Shown here: one piece after another, positions 447 through 56,245 of the stretch | Layout of the letters: every line of letters starts with the position of its first letter | Numbering within the stretch: position 1 is the first letter of the stretch | Assembly: GCF_021021475.1 (NCBI RefSeq) | Contig: NZ_JAINWL010000003.1 | Span: 124,001 to 188,000, forward strand | Length of the DNA: 64,000 nucleotides | DNA from: Citromicrobium bathyomarinum | GTDB lineage: Bacteria; Pseudomonadota; Alphaproteobacteria; Sphingomonadales; Sphingomonadaceae | Direction of reading: 5' to 3' | Program-made: the position numbers and the translations under genes | Notes under the pieces: generated by a model | What the model saw: only the letters and a program-made list of their open reading frames with translations | Database searches by the model: none | Told to the model about the DNA's origin: nothing

Positions 447-836
447 GTGATCATCCAACGCCAGTGCCTCGACCACCTCCTCGCAGCTGCGAGCGATGCC
501 CATCCGCACGAATGCTGCGGGCTGTTGCTAGGCGAAGGCACGACGATCACGCACGCCCAACCCACCGCCAATGTCCACCCCGATCCATCGCGCCATTTCG
601 AGATCGATCCGCACGCGCTGATCGCCGCGCACAAGGCTGCGCGGGGCGCAGGGCCGCAGGTGATCGGCTATTATCACTCGCACCCCACGGGCGATCCGAC
701 CCCGTCCGCCACCGACCGTGCCAGCGCCGCGCATGACGGGCGGGTCTGGGCGATCGTCGCGGGCCGCGAAGTCCGCTTTTTCAGGGATGGGGAAGAGGGA
801 TTCGTGGCGCTTTCCTACGCAGTCGCACCGCGCTAG
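447..836 (+). CDS. JAMM/MPN (Mov34) metallopeptidase, standalone
   Basis: This is a 129-residue protein consisting only of a JAMM zinc isopeptidase domain. The active-site set is complete and correctly spaced: Glu22 (HPHECCGLLLGE), His77 and His79 (YYHSHPTGDPTPSATD), Ser87 and Asp90. Family members cleave isopeptide or C-terminal extensions on ubiquitin-like sulfur carriers, or act as deubiquitinase-like enzymes; the substrate here is unknown. The frame stays open upstream through the palindromes, but similarity begins at IIQRQCLDH, so GTG at 447 is the chosen start. No sulfur-carrier or ThiF/E1-like gene is adjacent. A short reading frame and the 42-bp leader element follow before chpT. Confidence 0.8.
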   Translation: MIIQRQCLDHLLAAASDAHPHECCGLLLGEGTTITHAQPTANVHPDPSRHFEIDPHALIAAHKAARGAGPQVIGYYHSHPTGDPTPSATDRASAAHDGRVWAIVAGREVRFFRDGEEGFVALSYAVAPR

Positions 837-846
837 GCAGGCGGCG

Positions 847-969
847 ATGACCAATCGCGCACCCACCGATCCGACGCCGCTCTTTTCACCCGTGAAACAG
901 GGCAGGTTTTCTCTCCCTGGACTGTGTGTCAGGTGTGTCAGGGCAATGCATGCGGGAGGCCGGGGATGA
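847..969 (+). CDS. Candidate upstream ORF (40 aa) carrying the PGLCVRCVR motif, coupled to chpT
   Basis: This 40-codon frame starts at ATG 847, about 10 nt after the JAMM stop codon, and ends in TGA 967-969. That stop overlaps the chpT start as ATGA. Its C-terminal half contains RFSLPGLCVRCVR, encoded by the 42-bp element also present at two other loci. A very similar ending (SFSPPGLCVRCVR) occurs in a second small frame before queE, which also ends in an ATGA overlap. Translation is not proven, and the ribosome binding site (AGGCGG) is weak. It could be a leader peptide that couples translation, or the frame may be an accident of a nucleotide-level element. Confidence 0.35.
   Translation: MTNRAPTDPTPLFSPVKQGRFSLPGLCVRCVRAMHAGGRG
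901..942 (+). repeat. 42-bp leader element, copy 1 (upstream of chpT)
   Basis: The element runs from GGCAGGTTTTC through CCTGGACTG and ends in a perfect 9-bp tandem repeat, TGTGTCAGG twice. The last 24 bases are identical in all three copies in the window; the 5' part (GGC..GTTTTC or GGCAGTTTTTC) is similar. This copy ends 23 nt before the chpT ATG and points the same way as the gene. It may be an RNA leader, a protein-binding direct repeat, or coding sequence for a small peptide. Confidence 0.75.
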
Positions 970-1646
970 GCGGTATCGACGAAACCGATCCGCTGCTGCT
1001 CGCCAGCCAGCTGTGTTCGCGCCTGTGCCACGACATGCTCAGCCCCGTAGGCGCGCTGACCAACGGGCTGGAGCTGCTCGCGGACGAGAAAGACCCGCAG
1101 ATGCGCCAGCGCTGTTTCGAGCTGCTGGAGCAGAGCGCGCGGACCAGCGCGGCCAAGCTCAAGTTCTTCCGCCTCGCCTTCGGGGCGGCGGGCGGGTTCG
1201 GCGAACAGGTGTCGATCGATGAACCCAAGGCGGTGATCGAGACGCTGGCCGCCGATGCCAAGCGGGTCGAGCTCAACTGGGCGATCGAGGCGGCGAGCGT
1301 GTCGAAATCCGCGGCCAAGGTGATGCTGAACCTCGCGAATATCGGGCTGGACGCGCTGGTGCGCGGCGGCACGCTGGATGTGGGCATCGAAGTCCGCGAC
1401 GACGCGACCGAGATCGTGGTGCGCGCGGCGGGCCCCAAGATCGCGTTCGATCCGGTGATCGGCGACGCGCTGGGCGGCCGGATGGACCCGGCCGAGCTGA
1501 CCGGGCGCACCGCGCCTGCACATCTGCTGGCGATGCTGGCCGACAAGGAGGGCGGGCTGATCCAGACACATGCCGAGGTAGGCACGCTGCTGATGGGCGC
1601 GACGCTTCCCAATGGGGGCTCCAATACTCCGGCGTATGCGGGATGA
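966..1646 (+). CDS. chpT: Histidine phosphotransferase ChpT
   Basis: This 226-residue protein is related to Caulobacter ChpT, which passes phosphate from the hybrid kinase CckA to CtrA and CpdR in cell-cycle control. The phosphoacceptor is His22 in LCHDMLSPVGALTNGLELL, within a four-helix dimerisation region. A degenerate HATPase-like C-terminal region follows (SKSAAKVMLNLANIGLDALVRGG). The ATG at 966 was chosen over an ATG at 924, because 924 lies inside the repeated 42-bp element and family similarity begins at the later codon. A GGGAGG ribosome binding site precedes 966. The gene overlaps the following amidase by ATGA and is preceded by a candidate leader ORF ending in an ATGA overlap. Confidence 0.85.
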   Translation: MSGIDETDPLLLASQLCSRLCHDMLSPVGALTNGLELLADEKDPQMRQRCFELLEQSARTSAAKLKFFRLAFGAAGGFGEQVSIDEPKAVIETLAADAKRVELNWAIEAASVSKSAAKVMLNLANIGLDALVRGGTLDVGIEVRDDATEIVVRAAGPKIAFDPVIGDALGGRMDPAELTGRTAPAHLLAMLADKEGGLIQTHAEVGTLLMGATLPNGGSNTPAYAG

Positions 1647-2821: not shown

Positions 2822-4144
2822 CTATTCGCGCCCGACGCTGGTGTACTCGAACCCTGCCTCGCGCATGTCGGAAGGCTTGTAGATGTTGCGCAGGTCGACC
2901 AACACGGGGGCCTTGGCGAGCTGCTTGACCCGGTTGAGGTCGAGCGCGCGGAACACGTTCCACTCGGTCACGATGACGACCGCATCGGCACCCTCGATCG
3001 CGGCGTAGGGATCGTCCTTCATCTCGACCTCGGGCATCAGCGGGCGGGCCTGCTCCATGCCTTCCGGATCGTAGGCGGCGACGGAGACACCGGCGTCGAC
3101 CAGCGCCTGGGCAACGCCGATCGCAGGGGAATCGCGCATGTCGTCGGTATTGGGCTTGAAGGTCAGACCCAGCATCGCGACCCGCTTGCCTCGCGCGGCG
3201 TCGAGGCCTCCAAGTGCGTCGATCACCTTGCGGCCCATCGCGCGCTTGCGGGTGTCGTTGACCTTCACCACCGCCTCGACGATCCGCACCGGGCTCTCGT
3301 AATCCTCGGCGGTCTTGAGCAGCGCGAGCGTATCCTTGGGGAAGCACGAGCCGCCGTAGCCGGGCCCGGCGTGAAGGAACTTGGAGCCGATCCGGTTGTC
3401 CATCCCGATCCCGCGGGCAACGTCCTGCACGTTCGCGCCGACCTTCTCGCACAGGTCGGAGATCTCGTTGATGAAGGTGATCTTGGTCGCGAGGAAGGCG
3501 TTGGCGGCGTACTTGATCAGCTCGCTGGTGCGCCGCCCGACGAACAGGATCGGCGATTCGTTGAGGAACAGCGGGCGATACACTTCGTGCATCACCTCGC
3601 GCCCGAAATCGTCCTCGGCCCCGATGACGATGCGGTCGGGCCGCTTGAAATCGCCGATCGCGGCACCTTCGCGCAGGAATTCGGGGTTGGAGACCACCGC
3701 CACCTTCAGCCCGCGCTCGGTCACGGCGGGGCTCTGCGAGAGGATCCGTTCGACCTCGTCGCCGGTCCCCACGGGAACGGTCGACTTGGTCACCACGACC
3801 GCGTCGTTGGTCAGCGATTCGCCAATCTCGCGCGCGACGGCGTAGACGAAGGAGAGGTCCGCATGGCCATCGCCCCGGCGGCTGGGCGTGCCGACCGCGA
3901 TGAAGATCGCGCCCGCACCGGCAATGCCTTCGGCCAGATCGGTGGTGAAGGACAGGCGGCCCGCCTTCGCATTCTTGTCGACCAGATCGTCCAGGCCCGG
4001 CTCGTAGATCGGCATGATGCCTTCGCGCAGCCGCTGGATCTTGTCCTCGTCCTTGTCGATGCAGACCACGTCATGGCCGAAATCGGCAAAGCAGGCACCC
4101 GAGACCAGGCCGACATAGCCCGAGCCGACCATTGCGATTTTCAT
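2822..4144 (-). CDS. ugd: UDP-glucose 6-dehydrogenase
   Basis: This 440-residue protein oxidises UDP-glucose to UDP-glucuronate with two NAD+, feeding exopolysaccharide and glycolipid synthesis. The N-terminal Rossmann motif is VGSGYVG (residues 6-12). The catalytic cysteine is near residue 266 in HAGPGYGGSCFPKDT, and the C-terminal UDP-binding domain (GLTFKPNTDDMRDSP) is intact. The length matches the family. It lies 3 nt downstream of the phosphatase gene on the same strand, so the two are probably one operon. A GDP-mannose dehydrogenase is the alternative within this superfamily, but the motif wording fits Ugd better. Confidence 0.92.
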   Translation of the reverse strand: MKIAMVGSGYVGLVSGACFADFGHDVVCIDKDEDKIQRLREGIMPIYEPGLDDLVDKNAKAGRLSFTTDLAEGIAGAGAIFIAVGTPSRRGDGHADLSFVYAVAREIGESLTNDAVVVTKSTVPVGTGDEVERILSQSPAVTERGLKVAVVSNPEFLREGAAIGDFKRPDRIVIGAEDDFGREVMHEVYRPLFLNESPILFVGRRTSELIKYAANAFLATKITFINEISDLCEKVGANVQDVARGIGMDNRIGSKFLHAGPGYGGSCFPKDTLALLKTAEDYESPVRIVEAVVKVNDTRKRAMGRKVIDALGGLDAARGKRVAMLGLTFKPNTDDMRDSPAIGVAQALVDAGVSVAAYDPEGMEQARPLMPEVEMKDDPYAAIEGADAVVIVTEWNVFRALDLNRVKQLAKAPVLVDLRNIYKPSDMREAGFEYTSVGRE

Positions 4145-12496: not shown

Positions 12497-13231
12497 CTAG
12501 GTTCCTCTCGTATCGCCGAACAGATGGATATGCAGCCGGTCGGACAGGCGGTAGCCGTGTTCGAGGCAACGCGGCACCAGCCATTCCTGCCGCGCACGCA
12601 AGGTCGCGCCATCGGTGCCTTCCGCCATCACGAACACGCGGCCACGCGGCAGGGCATTGGCCCGCACGACCTCGCGCACCTCGTCCACATCGGCAGGTTC
12701 TGCGACCACGAACTTGAAGAACGCGCGCCCGTCGCTGGCGTATCGGCGCAGCACCGCGGGCACGATCGCCAGTGCGCGGGCATTGCCCGAATGGGTGAGC
12801 TTGGGGCTGATATTGAACTGGTCGACCCACACTTCGAGCTTGGGCGGGGGGAAGGCGGTGCCGTTGGTCTCTATCTCCACCGTCACGTCGGGCAGCAGCG
12901 CGAGCAGCTGCGCCAGCGCGGGGGCCTGCAACATCGGCTCGCCCCCGGTCACCACCAGCCGCCGCTGGCCCAGCGCCGCGATCCGCGCGGCGACATCCTC
13001 CACCTCCAGCGTCACCTGATTGGCCTTGCGATCGAAGGTCTGGCCCGAGCGATGCGGCCGCTCGTCACCCGCAAAGTGCCAGGTATAGGCGGTATCGCAC
13101 CACACGCAGGCAAGGTTGCAGCGCGACAGGCGCACGAAGGCGGTCGGCTCGCCCGCGCTCGGCCCTTCACCCTGTACCGAGGCGAAGATCTCCGGCCCGC
13201 CGGTGTCGTCGGTGGCTAGGACGAGGCTCAT
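12497..13231 (-). CDS. queE: 7-carboxy-7-deazaguanine synthase (radical SAM)
   Basis: This 244-residue radical SAM enzyme of queuosine and 7-deazapurine synthesis converts 6-carboxytetrahydropterin to 7-carboxy-7-deazaguanine. The [4Fe-4S]-binding cysteines are Cys38, Cys42 and Cys45 in SRCNLACVWCDTAYTW (CX3CX2C). EIFASVQGEGPSAGEPTAFVRL and VVTGGEPMLQ are further family signatures. The ATG at 13231 (MSLVLATDDT) is chosen. An ATG at 13264 would begin inside the repeated 42-bp element and add the non-conserved MCQVCQEPYSA. The start overlaps, as ATGA, the stop of a 37-codon frame carrying the same element. No other que gene lies nearby. Confidence 0.88.
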   Translation of the reverse strand: MSLVLATDDTGGPEIFASVQGEGPSAGEPTAFVRLSRCNLACVWCDTAYTWHFAGDERPHRSGQTFDRKANQVTLEVEDVAARIAALGQRRLVVTGGEPMLQAPALAQLLALLPDVTVEIETNGTAFPPPKLEVWVDQFNISPKLTHSGNARALAIVPAVLRRYASDGRAFFKFVVAEPADVDEVREVVRANALPRGRVFVMAEGTDGATLRARQEWLVPRCLEHGYRLSDRLHIHLFGDTRGT

Positions 13232-13341
13232 CGCGCTGTAGGGTTCCTGACACACCTGACACACAGTCCAGGGGGTGAAAAACTGCCCCCGTTGCGGGCG
13301 TGTGCAACACGGATGCCGGTGGTGGTGGGAAGGGCGATCAT
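13228..13341 (-). CDS. Candidate upstream ORF (37 aa) carrying the PGLCVRCVR motif, coupled to queE
   Basis: This 37-codon frame begins at ATG 13341 and ends with TGA at 13228-13230, overlapping the queE start as ATGA. Its C-terminal part (SFSPPGLCVRCVR, then NPTAR) matches that of the frame before chpT, although the N-terminal parts do not match. The common part is encoded by the 42-bp element. The shared architecture of size, motif position and ATGA overlap at two unrelated genes favours function. Translation is unproven and no strong ribosome binding site precedes it. Confidence 0.35.
   Translation of the reverse strand: MIALPTTTGIRVAHARNGGSFSPPGLCVRCVRNPTAR
13246..13287 (-). repeat. 42-bp leader element, copy 2 (upstream of queE)
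   Basis: On the minus strand this reads GGCAGTTTTTC, then CCCCCTGGACTG, then TGTGTCAGG twice. The last 24 bases are identical to copies 1 and 3. It ends 14 nt before the queE ATG and points toward the gene. It falls inside the candidate leader ORF 13228-13341. Confidence 0.75.
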
Positions 13342-13420
13342 CACTCGGTCTTGCCAGAAATCAGGGCAGTAGGAAATCGCGCGGCAGTCGGTGGGGTACA
13401 GATGCCGCCCGCCCGCGCAA

Positions 13421-46469: not shown

Positions 46470-49430
46470 ATGACCAACCGTTTTAACAAGGCGGCCTTGC
46501 TTGCTGGGACCGTGATGGCCGGCGCGGTGTTTGCCACGCCCGCCATGGCGCAAGGTACCCCGGACGAGCCCGCGCTCGAAACCGGTGCGTCCGAGCCCAA
46601 TGGCGAACTGATCGTCGTCACCGGTTCGCGCATCGCCCGTCGCGACCTCGAAACTGCGGCTCCGGTCGCGGTCGTGAACTCGGAAGAGTTCGAACTGTCG
46701 GGTTCGGTCAACGTCGAAAGCGTGATCAACACCCTGCCGCAGGTAGTGCCGGGCACGACCTCGTTCTCGAACAACCCGGGCGATGGCACCGCGACGCTGA
46801 ACCTTCGCGGTCTCGGCGCAACCCGCACGCTGGTGCTGGTCAATGGCCGTCGCTGGATGTTCTACAACACCGACCAGGTCGTCGACCTCAACACCATTCC
46901 GCAGTTCCTGCTTGAATCGGTCGACGTTGTGACCGGTGGTGCTTCGGCCGTTTACGGTTCGGACGCGATCGCCGGGGTCGTCAACTTCCGCCTCAAGGAT
47001 GTGCAGGGCGTCGAAGTCGGTGGCCAGTACTCGCTGACCGAGCGTGGCGACGGTGCGCGCTACGAAGTGCACGGTGCGATCGGCAGCGAATTCGCCGATG
47101 GCCGCGGTAGCGCCACGGTCTATGCCGAATACTACAAGCGCGATTCGATCTTCCAGGGCGACCGCGACTTCTCGAACTTCGCCCTCGGCGGTGAGACCGA
47201 CGGCGGCGACCTGCAGCAGTTCGGTTCCTCGACCCTGCCCAGCGGTGTGCTCCGCTACCTTGGCGGTGCGCAGGGCAACACCGGCCTTCCCGCCGGCACC
47301 GAATTTGGCGCTGCGGGCACCAACGGCTTCGGCACCGGCGTCGTCTTCGACCAGCCGCGTGACTTCCGTCGTCGTGCAGGCGATCTCTACAACTACGCTC
47401 CGGTGAACTACCTGCAGCTTCCGCAGGAACGTTACCTGCTCGGCGGCTATGCCGACTACGAGCTGGGCGGCGGTCACCGTGCCTACGCCGAAGTTTCCTA
47501 CGTCAACAACCAGGTCGAAGCCGCACTGGCAGCGACCCCGGTGACCGGCAACTTCAACGTCGATCTTGCAACCGTGCAGCCGTTCCTCGTGGCAGGCGAC
47601 TTCGCACAGCTGCAGGCGATCGACGCGGCGGAAACCGCACAGAACGCGACCGACGGCGTTGCCGACGATCCGGGTGTGGTGAACCTCTACGTGCAGCGTC
47701 GTGTCACCGAAACCGGCCTGCGCCAGAACCTCGACGAGCGTAACTCCTTCCGTATCCTCGGCGGGATCACCGGCCCGATCGGCGATTACCTGAACTACGA
47801 TGCCTACTACATGTATGCGCGTACTCGGAACGCCAACATCCAGCAGGGCAACATCTCGCGCTCGAACTTCCAGGCCGGGCTCGACGGCACGGGCACCCCG
47901 ATCAACATCTTCGGCCCCGGCACGCTGACGCCGGAAATGGTCGACTCGATCACCATCCAGGCCCAGAACGGCGATATTTCGTCGCTTCAGGTCGCAACGG
48001 CGGTGATCTCGGGTACGTTCGGCGACTTCGCCATCACCGAGGCATCCGATCCGGTCGGCTTCGCCATCGGTGGCGAATACCGCAAGGTTGCCGCGCAGTT
48101 CATTCCGGATACCGCGCTCGCTTCGGGTGACGTCATCGGCTTCAACGCCGGTGAGCCCACCAATGGCGATTACGATGTCCGCGAACTGTTCGCCGAAGTC
48201 GCGATCCCGGTCCGCTTCGGTACCGCAGCTCTCGATATCTCGGGTGCGGCGCGCTACTCCGACTATTCGAGCGGCACGATCGGTGGCGTTTGGACCTATG
48301 CCGGTGGCGTCGAATTCGCGCCGATCCCGGACATCAAGCTGCGTGCGCAGTATCAGCGTGCGGTTCGCGCTCCCAACGTGGGTGAACTGTTCGGTGGTCT
48401 GGCGATCGGCTTCCCGGGTGCGACCGACCCCTGTGCGGTTGCCGGTGCGCAGAACGATGCCACGCTCAACGCGCTGTGCATCGCGACCGGTGTTGCGCCG
48501 GGCAGCGTTGGTGACCCCAACATCCGTCCGGACACCCAGGTGCCCGCCACCTTCGGTGGTAACGCCGCTCTGGGCGAGGAAACCTCGGACAGCTACACCT
48601 TCGGTGTGGTGCTGCAGCCGCGGTTCATCCCGGGTCTCTCGATCACGGCCGACTACTTCAACTTCAAGATTGAAGACGCGATCGCGACCTTCGGTGGCGG
48701 CCTGAACAGCACCCTGAACCTGTGCTACAACGTCGTTCAGGACATCAACAGCGAGTACTGCCAGGTCATCGTCGGCACCCGTCAGGGCAACGGCGCGATC
48801 ACCACGGCGAACCCGCCGCTGTTGAACCAGGCGAACGTCGCGAAGCTCGAAGTGTCGGGCATCGACTTCCAGGTCGCTTACGGGACGAGCCTGCCGTTCT
48901 CGCTCTTCACCGACACCGGTGAGCAGCGTCTGCAGCTGTCCTTCCTCGGCACCTGGACCGAAAAGAGCGATCTGTACCCGGTGCAGGGCTTCGACACCGT
49001 CAACGAATGTGCGGGCCGCTTCGGCGCGACCTGTGGCGAACCGACGCCTGAGTTCAAGTGGACCAGCCGTGCCTCGTTCATCGATGGCCCGGTCACCACT
49101 TCGCTCCGCTGGCGTCATGTCGGTTCGGTCACCGATGACGATGACACGCTGGACTACACGCAGTTCAACGGGGTCGAGAAGATCGATGCCTACGACCTGC
49201 TGGACCTGACGTTCTCCTATGCGGCGAGCGAAGCGCTGACCCTGAGCGTGGGTGTGAACAACCTGTTCGACACGCTGCCGGGTACGCCTCTGTTCGATGC
49301 CAATGGTACCGTCACCAACCGTCCGAACAGCCTCCTGCTTGGCGACAACCAGGAACAGGCCAACACCTACCCGAGCACTTACGACGTGCTGGGCCGCGAC
49401 TTCTTCGTCAGCGCGATGATCAAGTTCTAG
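46470..49430 (+). CDS. TonB-dependent outer-membrane receptor 2
   Basis: This 986-residue TonB-dependent receptor has a signal peptide (ALLAGTVMAGAVFATPAMA). The plug starts with GELIVVTGSRIARRDLETAAPV (about 45-66) and contains LRGLGATRTLVLVNGRRWMF and ESVDVVTGGASAVYGSDAIA. The barrel ends in RDFFVSAMIKF with terminal Phe. It is clearly homologous to receptor 1 but lacks the acidic Cys-containing insert. GAAGGGG precedes ATG 46470. The 221-nt leader holds a TGCGC/GCGCA inverted repeat close to the start. A very strong terminator follows. Substrate unknown. Confidence 0.92.
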   Translation: MTNRFNKAALLAGTVMAGAVFATPAMAQGTPDEPALETGASEPNGELIVVTGSRIARRDLETAAPVAVVNSEEFELSGSVNVESVINTLPQVVPGTTSFSNNPGDGTATLNLRGLGATRTLVLVNGRRWMFYNTDQVVDLNTIPQFLLESVDVVTGGASAVYGSDAIAGVVNFRLKDVQGVEVGGQYSLTERGDGARYEVHGAIGSEFADGRGSATVYAEYYKRDSIFQGDRDFSNFALGGETDGGDLQQFGSSTLPSGVLRYLGGAQGNTGLPAGTEFGAAGTNGFGTGVVFDQPRDFRRRAGDLYNYAPVNYLQLPQERYLLGGYADYELGGGHRAYAEVSYVNNQVEAALAATPVTGNFNVDLATVQPFLVAGDFAQLQAIDAAETAQNATDGVADDPGVVNLYVQRRVTETGLRQNLDERNSFRILGGITGPIGDYLNYDAYYMYARTRNANIQQGNISRSNFQAGLDGTGTPINIFGPGTLTPEMVDSITIQAQNGDISSLQVATAVISGTFGDFAITEASDPVGFAIGGEYRKVAAQFIPDTALASGDVIGFNAGEPTNGDYDVRELFAEVAIPVRFGTAALDISGAARYSDYSSGTIGGVWTYAGGVEFAPIPDIKLRAQYQRAVRAPNVGELFGGLAIGFPGATDPCAVAGAQNDATLNALCIATGVAPGSVGDPNIRPDTQVPATFGGNAALGEETSDSYTFGVVLQPRFIPGLSITADYFNFKIEDAIATFGGGLNSTLNLCYNVVQDINSEYCQVIVGTRQGNGAITTANPPLLNQANVAKLEVSGIDFQVAYGTSLPFSLFTDTGEQRLQLSFLGTWTEKSDLYPVQGFDTVNECAGRFGATCGEPTPEFKWTSRASFIDGPVTTSLRWRHVGSVTDDDDTLDYTQFNGVEKIDAYDLLDLTFSYAASEALTLSVGVNNLFDTLPGTPLFDANGTVTNRPNSLLLGDNQEQANTYPSTYDVLGRDFFVSAMIKF

Positions 49431-55193: not shown

Positions 55194-55303
55194 CTGGCAC
55201 CCGTCTGCGGCCTTTCCTACCGGGCGGCGCCTGCTCTATCGCATGGGCATGTCGCGCGCCGCTGCCCCCTCTTCAGACGATCAATCGGGCACTGGACGGC
55301 ACC

Positions 55304-55345
55304 GGCCTGTTTTCTACCCCAGGACTGTGTGTCAGGTGTGTCAGG
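55304..55345 (+). repeat. 42-bp leader element, copy 3 (upstream of crotonase)
   Basis: This reads GGCCTGTTTTC, then CCCCAGGACTG, then TGTGTCAGG twice, ending 12 nt before the crotonase ATG. The last 24 bases match copies 1 and 2 except for one base before GGACTG. Here the conserved frame LFSTPGLCVRCVR has no ATG/GTG/TTG start after the SDR stop, and reads on in frame (EETR) into the crotonase itself without a stop. This differs from the ATGA arrangement of the other copies. Confidence 0.75.
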
Positions 55346-55357
55346 GAGGAGACCCGA

Positions 55358-56245
55358 ATGCCCGACTTCACCCAGATCAAGCTCGACATCGACGGCCCGA
55401 TTGCGACGATCACGCTCCATCGGCCCGAGAAGATGAATGCCTTCACGCACCAGATGCGTGACGAGATCATCGAGGCCATCGATATCACCGACGCGGACGA
55501 CGCAGTGCGCGCAGTGATCGTCACGGGCGATGGGGAGCGCGCCTTTTGCGCCGGGGCCGACCTGACGCCGCCGAAGAACCCGGATGGCACCGACAAGCAC
55601 GTGTTCTCCGACCCCACGACGGTCGACGACCTGTCCGACCCGATCGTGCGAGATGGCGGCGGGCAGCTCGTGCTGCGGCTGTTCAATTCGGAAAAGCCGC
55701 TGATCGGCGCGTGCAATGGCGTGGCGGTGGGCGTGGGTGCGACGATGCAGTTGCCCTTCGACATGCGGCTGTGTTCGGACAACGCACGCTTCGGCTTCGT
55801 CTTTGCCAAGCGCGGGATCACGCCGGAGGCCTGCTCCAGCTGGTTCCTTCCGCGTCTTGTCGGCATGTCGACCGCGCTCGAATGGTGCATGACGGGCCGC
55901 ATCTTCGACGCGCAGGAAGCGCTCAATGCGGGGCTGGTCCGGTCGGTCCATCCGCAGGGCGAGCTGATGGATGCCGCGCGCGCACTGGCGACCGAGATTG
56001 CCGAGAACGCCTCACCCATCTCGGTCGCGATGACCCGTGCGATGCTGTGGCGCCTCTCGGCGGAGGATCACCCGATGAAGGCGCACCGGATCGACAGCCG
56101 CTCGATCTACCGTCTCTCTCGCGGGGCCGACGCGAAGGAAGGCATTGCCAGCTTCCTCGAAAAGCGCCCGCCCGACTTCACCGGCAAGGTCAGCACCGAC
56201 ATGCCCGATTTCTATCCCTGGTGGCAGGAGCCCGAATATAAATGA
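55358..56245 (+). CDS. Enoyl-CoA hydratase/isomerase family protein
   Basis: This 295-residue crotonase has the oxyanion-hole segments AFCAGADLTPPKNPDG (about 63-78) and CNGVAVGVGATMQLPFDMRL (about 120-139), followed by the helical C-terminus. A conserved catalytic Glu in the second position is not certain in RGITPEACSSWFLPRLVG. It most likely hydrates enoyl-CoA or is a related isomerase. ATG 55358 has GAGGAG upstream. The stop overlaps MTA phosphorylase as ATGA. The repeated 42-bp element directly precedes its ribosome site. Confidence 0.9.
   Translation: MPDFTQIKLDIDGPIATITLHRPEKMNAFTHQMRDEIIEAIDITDADDAVRAVIVTGDGERAFCAGADLTPPKNPDGTDKHVFSDPTTVDDLSDPIVRDGGGQLVLRLFNSEKPLIGACNGVAVGVGATMQLPFDMRLCSDNARFGFVFAKRGITPEACSSWFLPRLVGMSTALEWCMTGRIFDAQEALNAGLVRSVHPQGELMDAARALATEIAENASPISVAMTRAMLWRLSAEDHPMKAHRIDSRSIYRLSRGADAKEGIASFLEKRPPDFTGKVSTDMPDFYPWWQEPEYK

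Follow-up and report, generated by a model that had tools for sequence, protein, structure and literature searches.

What kind of signal recurs, letter for letter, just upstream of three unrelated genes within 64,000 nucleotides of the Citromicrobium bathyomarinum genome, and what might read it? The initial annotation of this stretch (the window, meaning the whole 64,000-nucleotide sequence analyzed) had described three copies of a short element with identical 3' ends, each pointing toward the start of a chpT, queE or crotonase gene from 12 to 23 nt away. Both statements hold: the 24-base core GGACTGTGTGTCAGGTGTGTCAGG, which is GGACTG followed by two units of TGTGTCAGG, is exact at all three places, and the gaps from core to predicted start are 23 nt for the chpT-like gene, 14 nt for the queE-like gene and 12 nt for the crotonase gene. 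The mean number of core matches with up to three mismatches was 0.00 in 100 dinucleotide shuffles, and the unit TGTGTCAGG occurs six times in the window, every time within one of the three cores, against 0.19 expected. What had been called a looser TTTTC region upstream is indeed T rich but not loose, as the T-run of each window copy ends 9 nt before GGAC. The promoter-like motif TTTCCTAC lies upstream of each copy on the same strand, 99 to 101 nt from the core. The features in question, in window positions, are the following.

811-835, plus strand: putative promoter-like motif (a sequence motif) of copy 1, TTTCCTAC at 811-818 and CTA at 833-835 as its -10-like part
847-969, plus strand: short upstream ORF of copy 1, 40 aa, ATG 34 nt past the start of TCCTA, running through the core, its stop and the chpT start overlapping as ATGA
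907-910, plus strand: T-run of copy 1, ending 9 nt ahead of GGAC, a position fixed in 185 copies
919-942, plus strand: core copy 1, exact GGACTGTGTGTCAGGTGTGTCAGG
966-1646, plus strand: chpT-like gene downstream of copy 1 (Pfam HPTransfase, E 8e-29; NCBIfam ChpT models below curated cut-off)
12497-13231, minus strand: queE-like gene downstream of copy 2 (Pfam Radical_SAM; NCBIfam QueE model below curated cut-off)
13228-13341, minus strand: short upstream ORF of copy 2, 37 aa, its stop and the queE start overlapping as ATGA
13246-13269, minus strand: core copy 2, exact GGACTGTGTGTCAGGTGTGTCAGG
13278-13282, minus strand: T-run of copy 2
13369-13376, minus strand: promoter-like motif of copy 2, TTTCCTAC, with no clear -10 behind it
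55213-55220, plus strand: promoter-like motif of copy 3, TTTCCTAC
55249-55461, plus strand: 70-aa ORF that may be the upstream ORF of copy 3, sharing 104 nt with the crotonase gene in a different frame, weaker than those of copies 1 and 2
55310-55313, plus strand: T-run of copy 3
55322-55345, plus strand: core copy 3, exact GGACTGTGTGTCAGGTGTGTCAGG
55358-56245, plus strand: enoyl-CoA hydratase (crotonase) gene downstream of copy 3 (Pfam ECH_1, E 6e-57; NF006109 above cut-off)

Elsewhere in the window, a bacterial RNase P RNA (class A) at 2428-2808 on the plus strand is the sole Rfam match (303.5 bits), and the only TTTCCTAC without an element, at 47494-47501 on the plus strand, has surroundings that look coding.

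A search of the 3,204,272-base genome with the 21-mer CTGTGTGTCAGGTGTGTCAGG, allowing up to three mismatches, returned 23 and 20 matches on the two strands against 0 for the reversed control, upholding the earlier judgment that the recurrence is not due to chance. These 43 matches occupy 41 places, because a third repeat is present at two of them; some copies have three tandem TGTGTCAGG units and one has four (L009, L018; G003:C26:254016-254051). Genes and starts were taken from our own codon-usage caller rather than a standard annotator, with other genomes called by the codon usage of this one. By these calls, which assign 89% of the window to genes, none of the 41 copies overlaps a gene by more than 15 nt, and the next gene lies between -5 and 92 nt past the core. 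The leader role before start codons that had been proposed, and the same-strand bias expected of a genome-wide tabulation, were borne out in part: there are dozens of copies, none of them in a predicted gene, and 25 of the 41 precede a sense gene, with its predicted start 12 to 92 nt past the core (12 to 38 nt in 15 of the 25), but the other 16 face the 3' end of a convergent gene, -5 to 56 nt past the core, so that the element is not only an mRNA leader. A better unifying feature is a place downstream of the promoter-like motif [T/G]TCCTA[C/A], found for 37 copies, or just behind a co-directional gene, from which the remaining four (L002, L004, L006, L029) are 15 to 40 nt away. The copies thus placed probably sit on a transcribed strand, transcription itself being something that we infer. 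By their Pfam matches the sense genes have unrelated core functions; they include what we take to be ybeY and genes for an amidohydrolase, a pyridine nucleotide-disulphide oxidoreductase, an M20 peptidase and a release factor, and presumably also ruvA, purA, a pterin-binding enzyme gene, moaC, an sdhB-like and an rsmB/F-like gene, trpA and others. The convergent neighbors include an FtsK-type gene, phosphoglucose isomerase and a gene of the uracil-DNA glycosylase family.

The element follows the pattern GGAC[AT][GC]TGTxxCAnnTGTxxCA, in which xx is GT in this genome. In a sample scan of named genomes (115 matches and 80 titles listed), xx was equal in both repeats in 101 of the 115 matches, where 1/16 would be expected by chance, and the equal words among the matches listed were GT (40), TC (38), AA (10), GA (6), CT (5) and CG (2). 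The 80 titles listed belong mostly to Erythrobacter, Citromicrobium, Alteriqipengyuania, Aurantiacibacter, Altererythrobacter, Tsuneonella and their kin, with a few unrelated ones. The TGTGTCAGG dimer had 28 to 42 matches in this genome and in seven of eight same-genus genomes, 0 in the eighth (G004), and a single mismatched match in one of 21 other genomes compared. G004 has TGTTCCATGTGTTCCATC at the same place in its trpA leader and 22 such TC-word copies in its genome, and the TC word was found in none of the other same-genus genomes. At its loci L132 and L134-L154 the TC word often runs on into CCTGTAGGA, a sequence containing the inverse complement of TCCTACA from the promoter motif. A TC-word relative (locus L308) has a copy at 3647, without promoter motif, and 336 nt downstream of it a CtrA gene (above the cut-off of the NCBIfam CtrA equivalog), and a chpT-like gene lies downstream of a window copy; the known CtrA motif differs from the element.

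Within a genome the uniformity of the word appears strong but not complete. Among the matches listed, Erythrobacter sp. EC-HK427 has AA/AT three times and AA/AA twice and one Altererythrobacter MAG has GT/CC twice, and there are single word exceptions in G033, G081, G111 and G120. The earlier supposition that the element may be common in its family is apt for the architecture, which is present in part of the family, but not for the word, which differs between genomes: the strict generalized pattern GGACWNTGTNNCANNTGTNNCA matched 22 of 149 family genomes (reversed control 0), and in a sample of the order, with W and S fixed, matches came from 4 of 35 genomes inside the family, our own included, and from 0 of 83 outside, with one hit for the reversed control. 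A phage origin was considered and rejected, the 43 hits on viral contigs (equal xx in 6 of 43, 3 distinct sequences) being taken as chance.

At trpA and queE, the place and layout of the element are kept while the word changes, and orthologous positions are conserved at prfA, trpA, queE and other genes. The next-gene clusters that recur with different words include those that we take to be ruvA, queE, pyrC-like, lpd-like, purA, chpT, trpA and a moaC-containing one. When queE leaders from 29 genomes were read by eye, 10 had the strict element (GT in 4, TC in 3, GA in 2, CT in 1), 4 had TGGTCCA-like or mixed words at the same place (G012, G144, G134, G084), 7 had an inverted-plus-direct GGTGACAnnTGTCACC form (clear in G138, G052 and G149; loose in G033, G115, G121 and G122) and 8 had no form of it. 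These leaders suggest that at least some of the 127 family genomes (of 149) that lack a strict match may use other words. Both G134 and G052 have AA words elsewhere in the genome, so one genome can use more than one word kind. In several genera the position of the element before queE is taken by a third kind of word, TGGTCCAnnCGGTCCA, pure or mixed (L403, L407, L410, L412), and this includes a genome that has AA words elsewhere. At prfA, the element of the other GT-word genomes is replaced in G008 by a long GGGTGACAC/GTGTCACCC palindrome.

Intergenic copies that are nearly identical and number in the dozens, with a word mostly uniform within a genome and different between genomes as in concerted evolution, could also come from a mobile or homogenizing repeat (REP/MITE-like) spreading near gene ends. 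However, orthologous genes keep the element across genera, and locus-specific variants are inherited, such as TCAGC at trpA in 8 of 8 GT-word orthologs. Moreover, in the 255 nt upstream of the copies of this genome, the promoter-like and boxA-like motifs were the only shared words to stand out. A mobile repeat appears already disfavored by these patterns, and we hold it to be very improbable. A word that is rewritten while the layout is kept suggests an uncharacterized trans-acting reader; the recurrent downstream gene clusters of two or more offered no obvious candidate for such a factor.

The anatomy of the units was compared over a set of copies from this and related genomes, of which 201 were kept after unequal-xx matches without promoter motif, duplicates and edge cases had been dropped, then 196 and then 185 nonredundant copies, 151 with the promoter-like motif and 34 without. 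In the 37 motif-bearing copies of our own genome, TCCTA lies 76 to 147 nt from GGAC, and CTA follows TCCTA[C/A] in 23 of them, after 14 nt in 18 and after 15 nt in 5. A promoter pattern with a 13-nt gap, which gave 0 matches against 24 in the reversed control, was discarded because its spacing was wrong, the real CTA gap being 14 to 15 nt. The rRNA leader region of this genome has TTTGACC upstream of CCTAGAT; if this pair is the rRNA promoter, the -35-like motif of the units would be distinct from the one used there. A co-directional gene precedes, within 60 nt, 12 of the 34 copies without the motif versus 0 of the 151 with it (7 of the 151 have no left gene called), and the 22 others of the 34 have neither the exact motif nor a called co-directional gene end within 60 nt, though 6 of these 22 have a motif with one mismatch.

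Between motif and element there are two main designs, a short upstream ORF (uORF) or a boxA-like site: among the 151 motif-bearing copies, 28 have boxA, 110 an ATG without boxA and 13 neither. The ATG falls 22 to 45 nt after TCCTA in 110 of the 123 copies without boxA, compared with 23 of 123 for a control window at 46 to 69 nt, and its most frequent place is at 33 to 36 nt (79 of 110), so that the uORF would be near-leaderless if the motif is a promoter. The uORF runs past the element in 90 of 110, and in 5 of 19 uORF copies of this genome its stop and the predicted start of the main gene share the letters ATGA, with a one-nt overlap in 2. Such placement and the several stop-start overlaps speak for attenuation by a leader peptide, an option raised in the initial annotation, in which a ribosome would read Cys-Val-Arg or similar codons of the uORF (...GLCVRCVR). 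The frame in which the repeats are crossed, however, is spread over 45, 35 and 30 of the 110 uORFs, the words change regardless of codons, the 28 boxA-bearing copies have another design, and 16 of the 41 own copies face no sense gene. The CVRCVR peptide code, attractive in copies 1 and 2, was therefore rejected for its unfixed frame, and leader-peptide attenuation, now disfavored, strikes us as scarcely credible. Across the genus, the trpA leaders (L102-L109, L111) have a seemingly similar N-terminal part of the uORF, and its end and its frame through the element vary.

The boxA design consists of GCTCTTT and then a sequence like CAAATCGTC. The core G[CT]TCTTT that marks these 28 copies is also found in rRNA leaders, and the units are similar to sequences in the rRNA leaders here and in G120 (GGTTCTTTGACATTGTTG, GGCTCTTTGAAATTGTTG). 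For boxA, the site of the Nus factor complex, the section of PMC5725501 concerned with it gives the consensus GYTCTTTAANA, which the GCTCTTT core fits, but most units of this genome follow the core with C or G in place of A, and the site recurs here across many short units, the majority of which face convergent genes. The ratio of convergent to sense neighbors is 24:3 for boxA copies versus 12:95 for uORF copies without boxA (Fisher P 1.3e-14, omitting the 13 copies with neither design and 4 without a next gene). We read boxA and uORF as two ways in which Rho may be kept off the leader. Nine loci with boxA units, searched against Rfam, matched only a tRNA. There is also a second kind of unit, between convergent genes, with TTTCCTAC or TGTCCTAC, boxA, a longer stretch and the GGGTGACAC/GTGTCACCC palindrome (L189, L196 and L197 in our own genome; L206 and L216 in G008).

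Immediately before the element, the 185 copies have T at -12, -11, -10 and -9 relative to GGAC in 65, 84, 90 and 82% of cases, with C at 68 to 78% from -5 to -2 and G enriched from -22 to -13. A run of at least three T is present in 167 of 185 copies versus 41, 88 and 47 in three upstream control windows, and a run of at least four in 128 versus 5, 21 and 22. From the last T to the first TGT (at +6) there are about 14 nt. The search pattern itself imposed GGAC, [AT], [GC], TGT and CA, but not xx, the spacer, the T-run or the C-run. This geometry bears on the possibility that the element is an ordinary transcription factor operator for the upstream TTTCCTAC promoter, or serves polymerase recruitment, without effect on elongation. 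The repeats do resemble a transcription factor site, unrelated genes could share the element as a regulon, and the second kind of element has inverted symmetry. Yet the distance from TCCTA to GGAC varies over 76 to 147 nt while that from T-run to element is fixed, the four own copies just behind genes (L002, L004, L006, L029) have no promoter-like motif, and the uORF or boxA between motif and site would go unexplained; we consider an operator of this kind improbable.

In folding tests, hairpins had, relative to shuffles, z scores of -0.32 ± 0.09 and -0.53 ± 0.09 (controls -0.12, -0.04 and -0.18) and end-anchored hairpins were found in 142 of 185 copies versus 119.6 in shuffles, with the element alone not more stable than shuffles. 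Relative to chimeras of different copies, both hairpins had z -0.15 ± 0.09, no significant excess, and the chimera test of the upstream stretch against the T-run plus element gave z -0.17 ± 0.08 (controls -0.07). An RNA hairpin with a U-rich loop and a terminator hairpin are both less favored, having a small excess over shuffles and no significant excess over other-copy chimeras. No Rfam family of known structured cis-regulatory RNA matched the element in the window or at the nine boxA-unit loci. Taken from these comparisons, a structured RNA does not appear clearly supported, and a linear signal appears better supported than a folded one.

The main rival to a DNA roadblock is a factor that binds RNA. 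A single-stranded RNA-binding protein or an sRNA might act on UGUxxCAnnUGUxxCA in 5' leaders and 3' UTRs to control translation or decay, with the standalone boxA units as titrating sponge RNAs. Such a site would suit the place of most copies downstream of a promoter-like motif or co-directional gene, the boxA units with the same element that mostly face no sense gene (24 of 27), the closeness of the predicted start (12 to 38 nt) to 15 of the 25 sense copies of this genome, and an element no more structured than shuffles. But the search of both genome strands with the 21-mer, at up to three mismatches, found only the elements and thus no RNA with such extended complementarity there, the complement of the repeat's 7-mer occurs once per rrn stretch, in a position that a GT-word and a TC-word genome have in common, and so is not linked to the code, the fixed T-run and C-run would have no role, and RNA copies of the palindromes that some relatives have in this position would be double-stranded. 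We regard an RNA-level site as unlikely on balance. Pairing with rRNA or RNase P RNA was tried and rejected: the tested complements were absent from 16S (two genomes) and RNase P RNA, with part of 23S covered for this genome, and TGACACA is found once per rrn stretch, just before 16S, at a position shared by a GT-word and a TC-word genome.

The reading that we favor, to which we give a probability of roughly 0.45, is that each copy is a putative site of a sequence-specific DNA-binding factor that would halt RNA polymerase past the promoter, forming a roadblock attenuator or terminator with genome-dependent specificity. Polymerase would start at the TTTCCTAC/TGTCCTAC promoter, and translation of the uORF or the boxA site would protect the polymerase of the early transcript from Rho until it meets the factor bound on the TGTxxCA repeats. 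Its active center would then be on the T-run about 14 bp upstream, where a weak hybrid would favor release; with the factor absent or inactive, it would read through into the sense gene (25 of 41) or, antisense, into the convergent gene (16 of 41). Among the roles suggested at the outset, a protein-binding site seems to fit best, since turnover of the word with a conserved layout points to a trans-acting reader. A DNA roadblock is favored by the orientation of the copies with presumed transcription, by a T-run whose distance from the repeats is constant at about 14 bp and by the apparent need to keep Rho away, and the inverted-plus-direct GGTGACAnnTGTCACCTTTGTCACC-type repeat at the same queE place in some relatives gives the site the look of a DNA operator.

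Other observations weigh against a roadblock. Orientation and word turnover would be accounted for just as well by an RNA-binding factor or a short antisense RNA, the 9-nt period of the repeats does not correspond to a helical turn, and boxA units that face convergent genes would have no obvious purpose in a pure attenuator. As 22 of the 34 motif-less copies have no called co-directional gene end within 60 nt, not every copy is shown to be transcribed, and CTA stands behind the motif in only 23 of 37. The hairpin z scores of -0.32 and -0.53 against shuffles, with the chimera z of -0.17 ± 0.08, leave room for an RNA element, some genomes mix words, and the strict pattern is present in only 22 of 149 family genomes.

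In behavior, the closest known system would be the stoperators of cluster A mycobacteriophages, the L5/Bxb1 repressor sites. As described in the pertinent parts of PMC6550527 and PMC9283540, these are asymmetric sites, tens per genome, many in short intergenic spaces and oriented with transcription, whose motif differs between related genomes together with repressor specificity. The 41 asymmetric sites found here are likewise oriented with presumed transcription and have a genome-specific motif, but they lie on a bacterial chromosome beside housekeeping genes, are longer (about 22 bp plus the T-run) with direct repeats, and mostly have their own promoter-like motif and uORF or boxA, and their cognate repressor is only postulated. 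In geometry, the closest would be the eukaryotic Pol I roadblock terminators (Reb1/Nsi1/TTF1), at which, according to the portion of PMC12366685 devoted to them, a T-rich stretch where polymerase pauses lies 15 bp upstream of the protein on the DNA, close to the about 14 bp here. That system belongs to another polymerase and another domain of life and needs an RNA hairpin, whereas no clearly coevolving hairpin was found here. Membership in either class is not claimed. In bacteria, DNA-bound PurR, CcpA, CodY, LacI and others stop elongating RNA polymerase, as outlined in the passages of the review PMC10310618 on such roadblocks. By analogy, we propose the same act of a DNA-bound protein stopping polymerase. 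The bacterial roadblocks known to us serve defined regulators, and we know of none whose word is specific to the genome over dozens of leaders of housekeeping genes. No description of the element was found in Rfam or in the literature searched, and an exact-string search for three word strings found no paper, the literature in both cases lying mostly outside subscription journals.

More tentatively, and at clearly less than even odds, we propose that the family may possess an elongation-control system spanning the chromosome, in which a rapidly evolving factor would act on dozens of leader units (queE, trpA, purA, ruvA and others) and on convergent boxA units, with the word rewritten in concert at most sites as lineages diverge. 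If this is true, a group of environmental bacteria would control core genes through a stop sign that stands past the promoter and is written in a lineage-private code, and the presence of a translated ORF or a boxA in such short leaders would be explained. Nature would also have provided an experiment on how a regulator shifts specificity along with dozens of its sites, something that is hard to follow with only a handful of sites.
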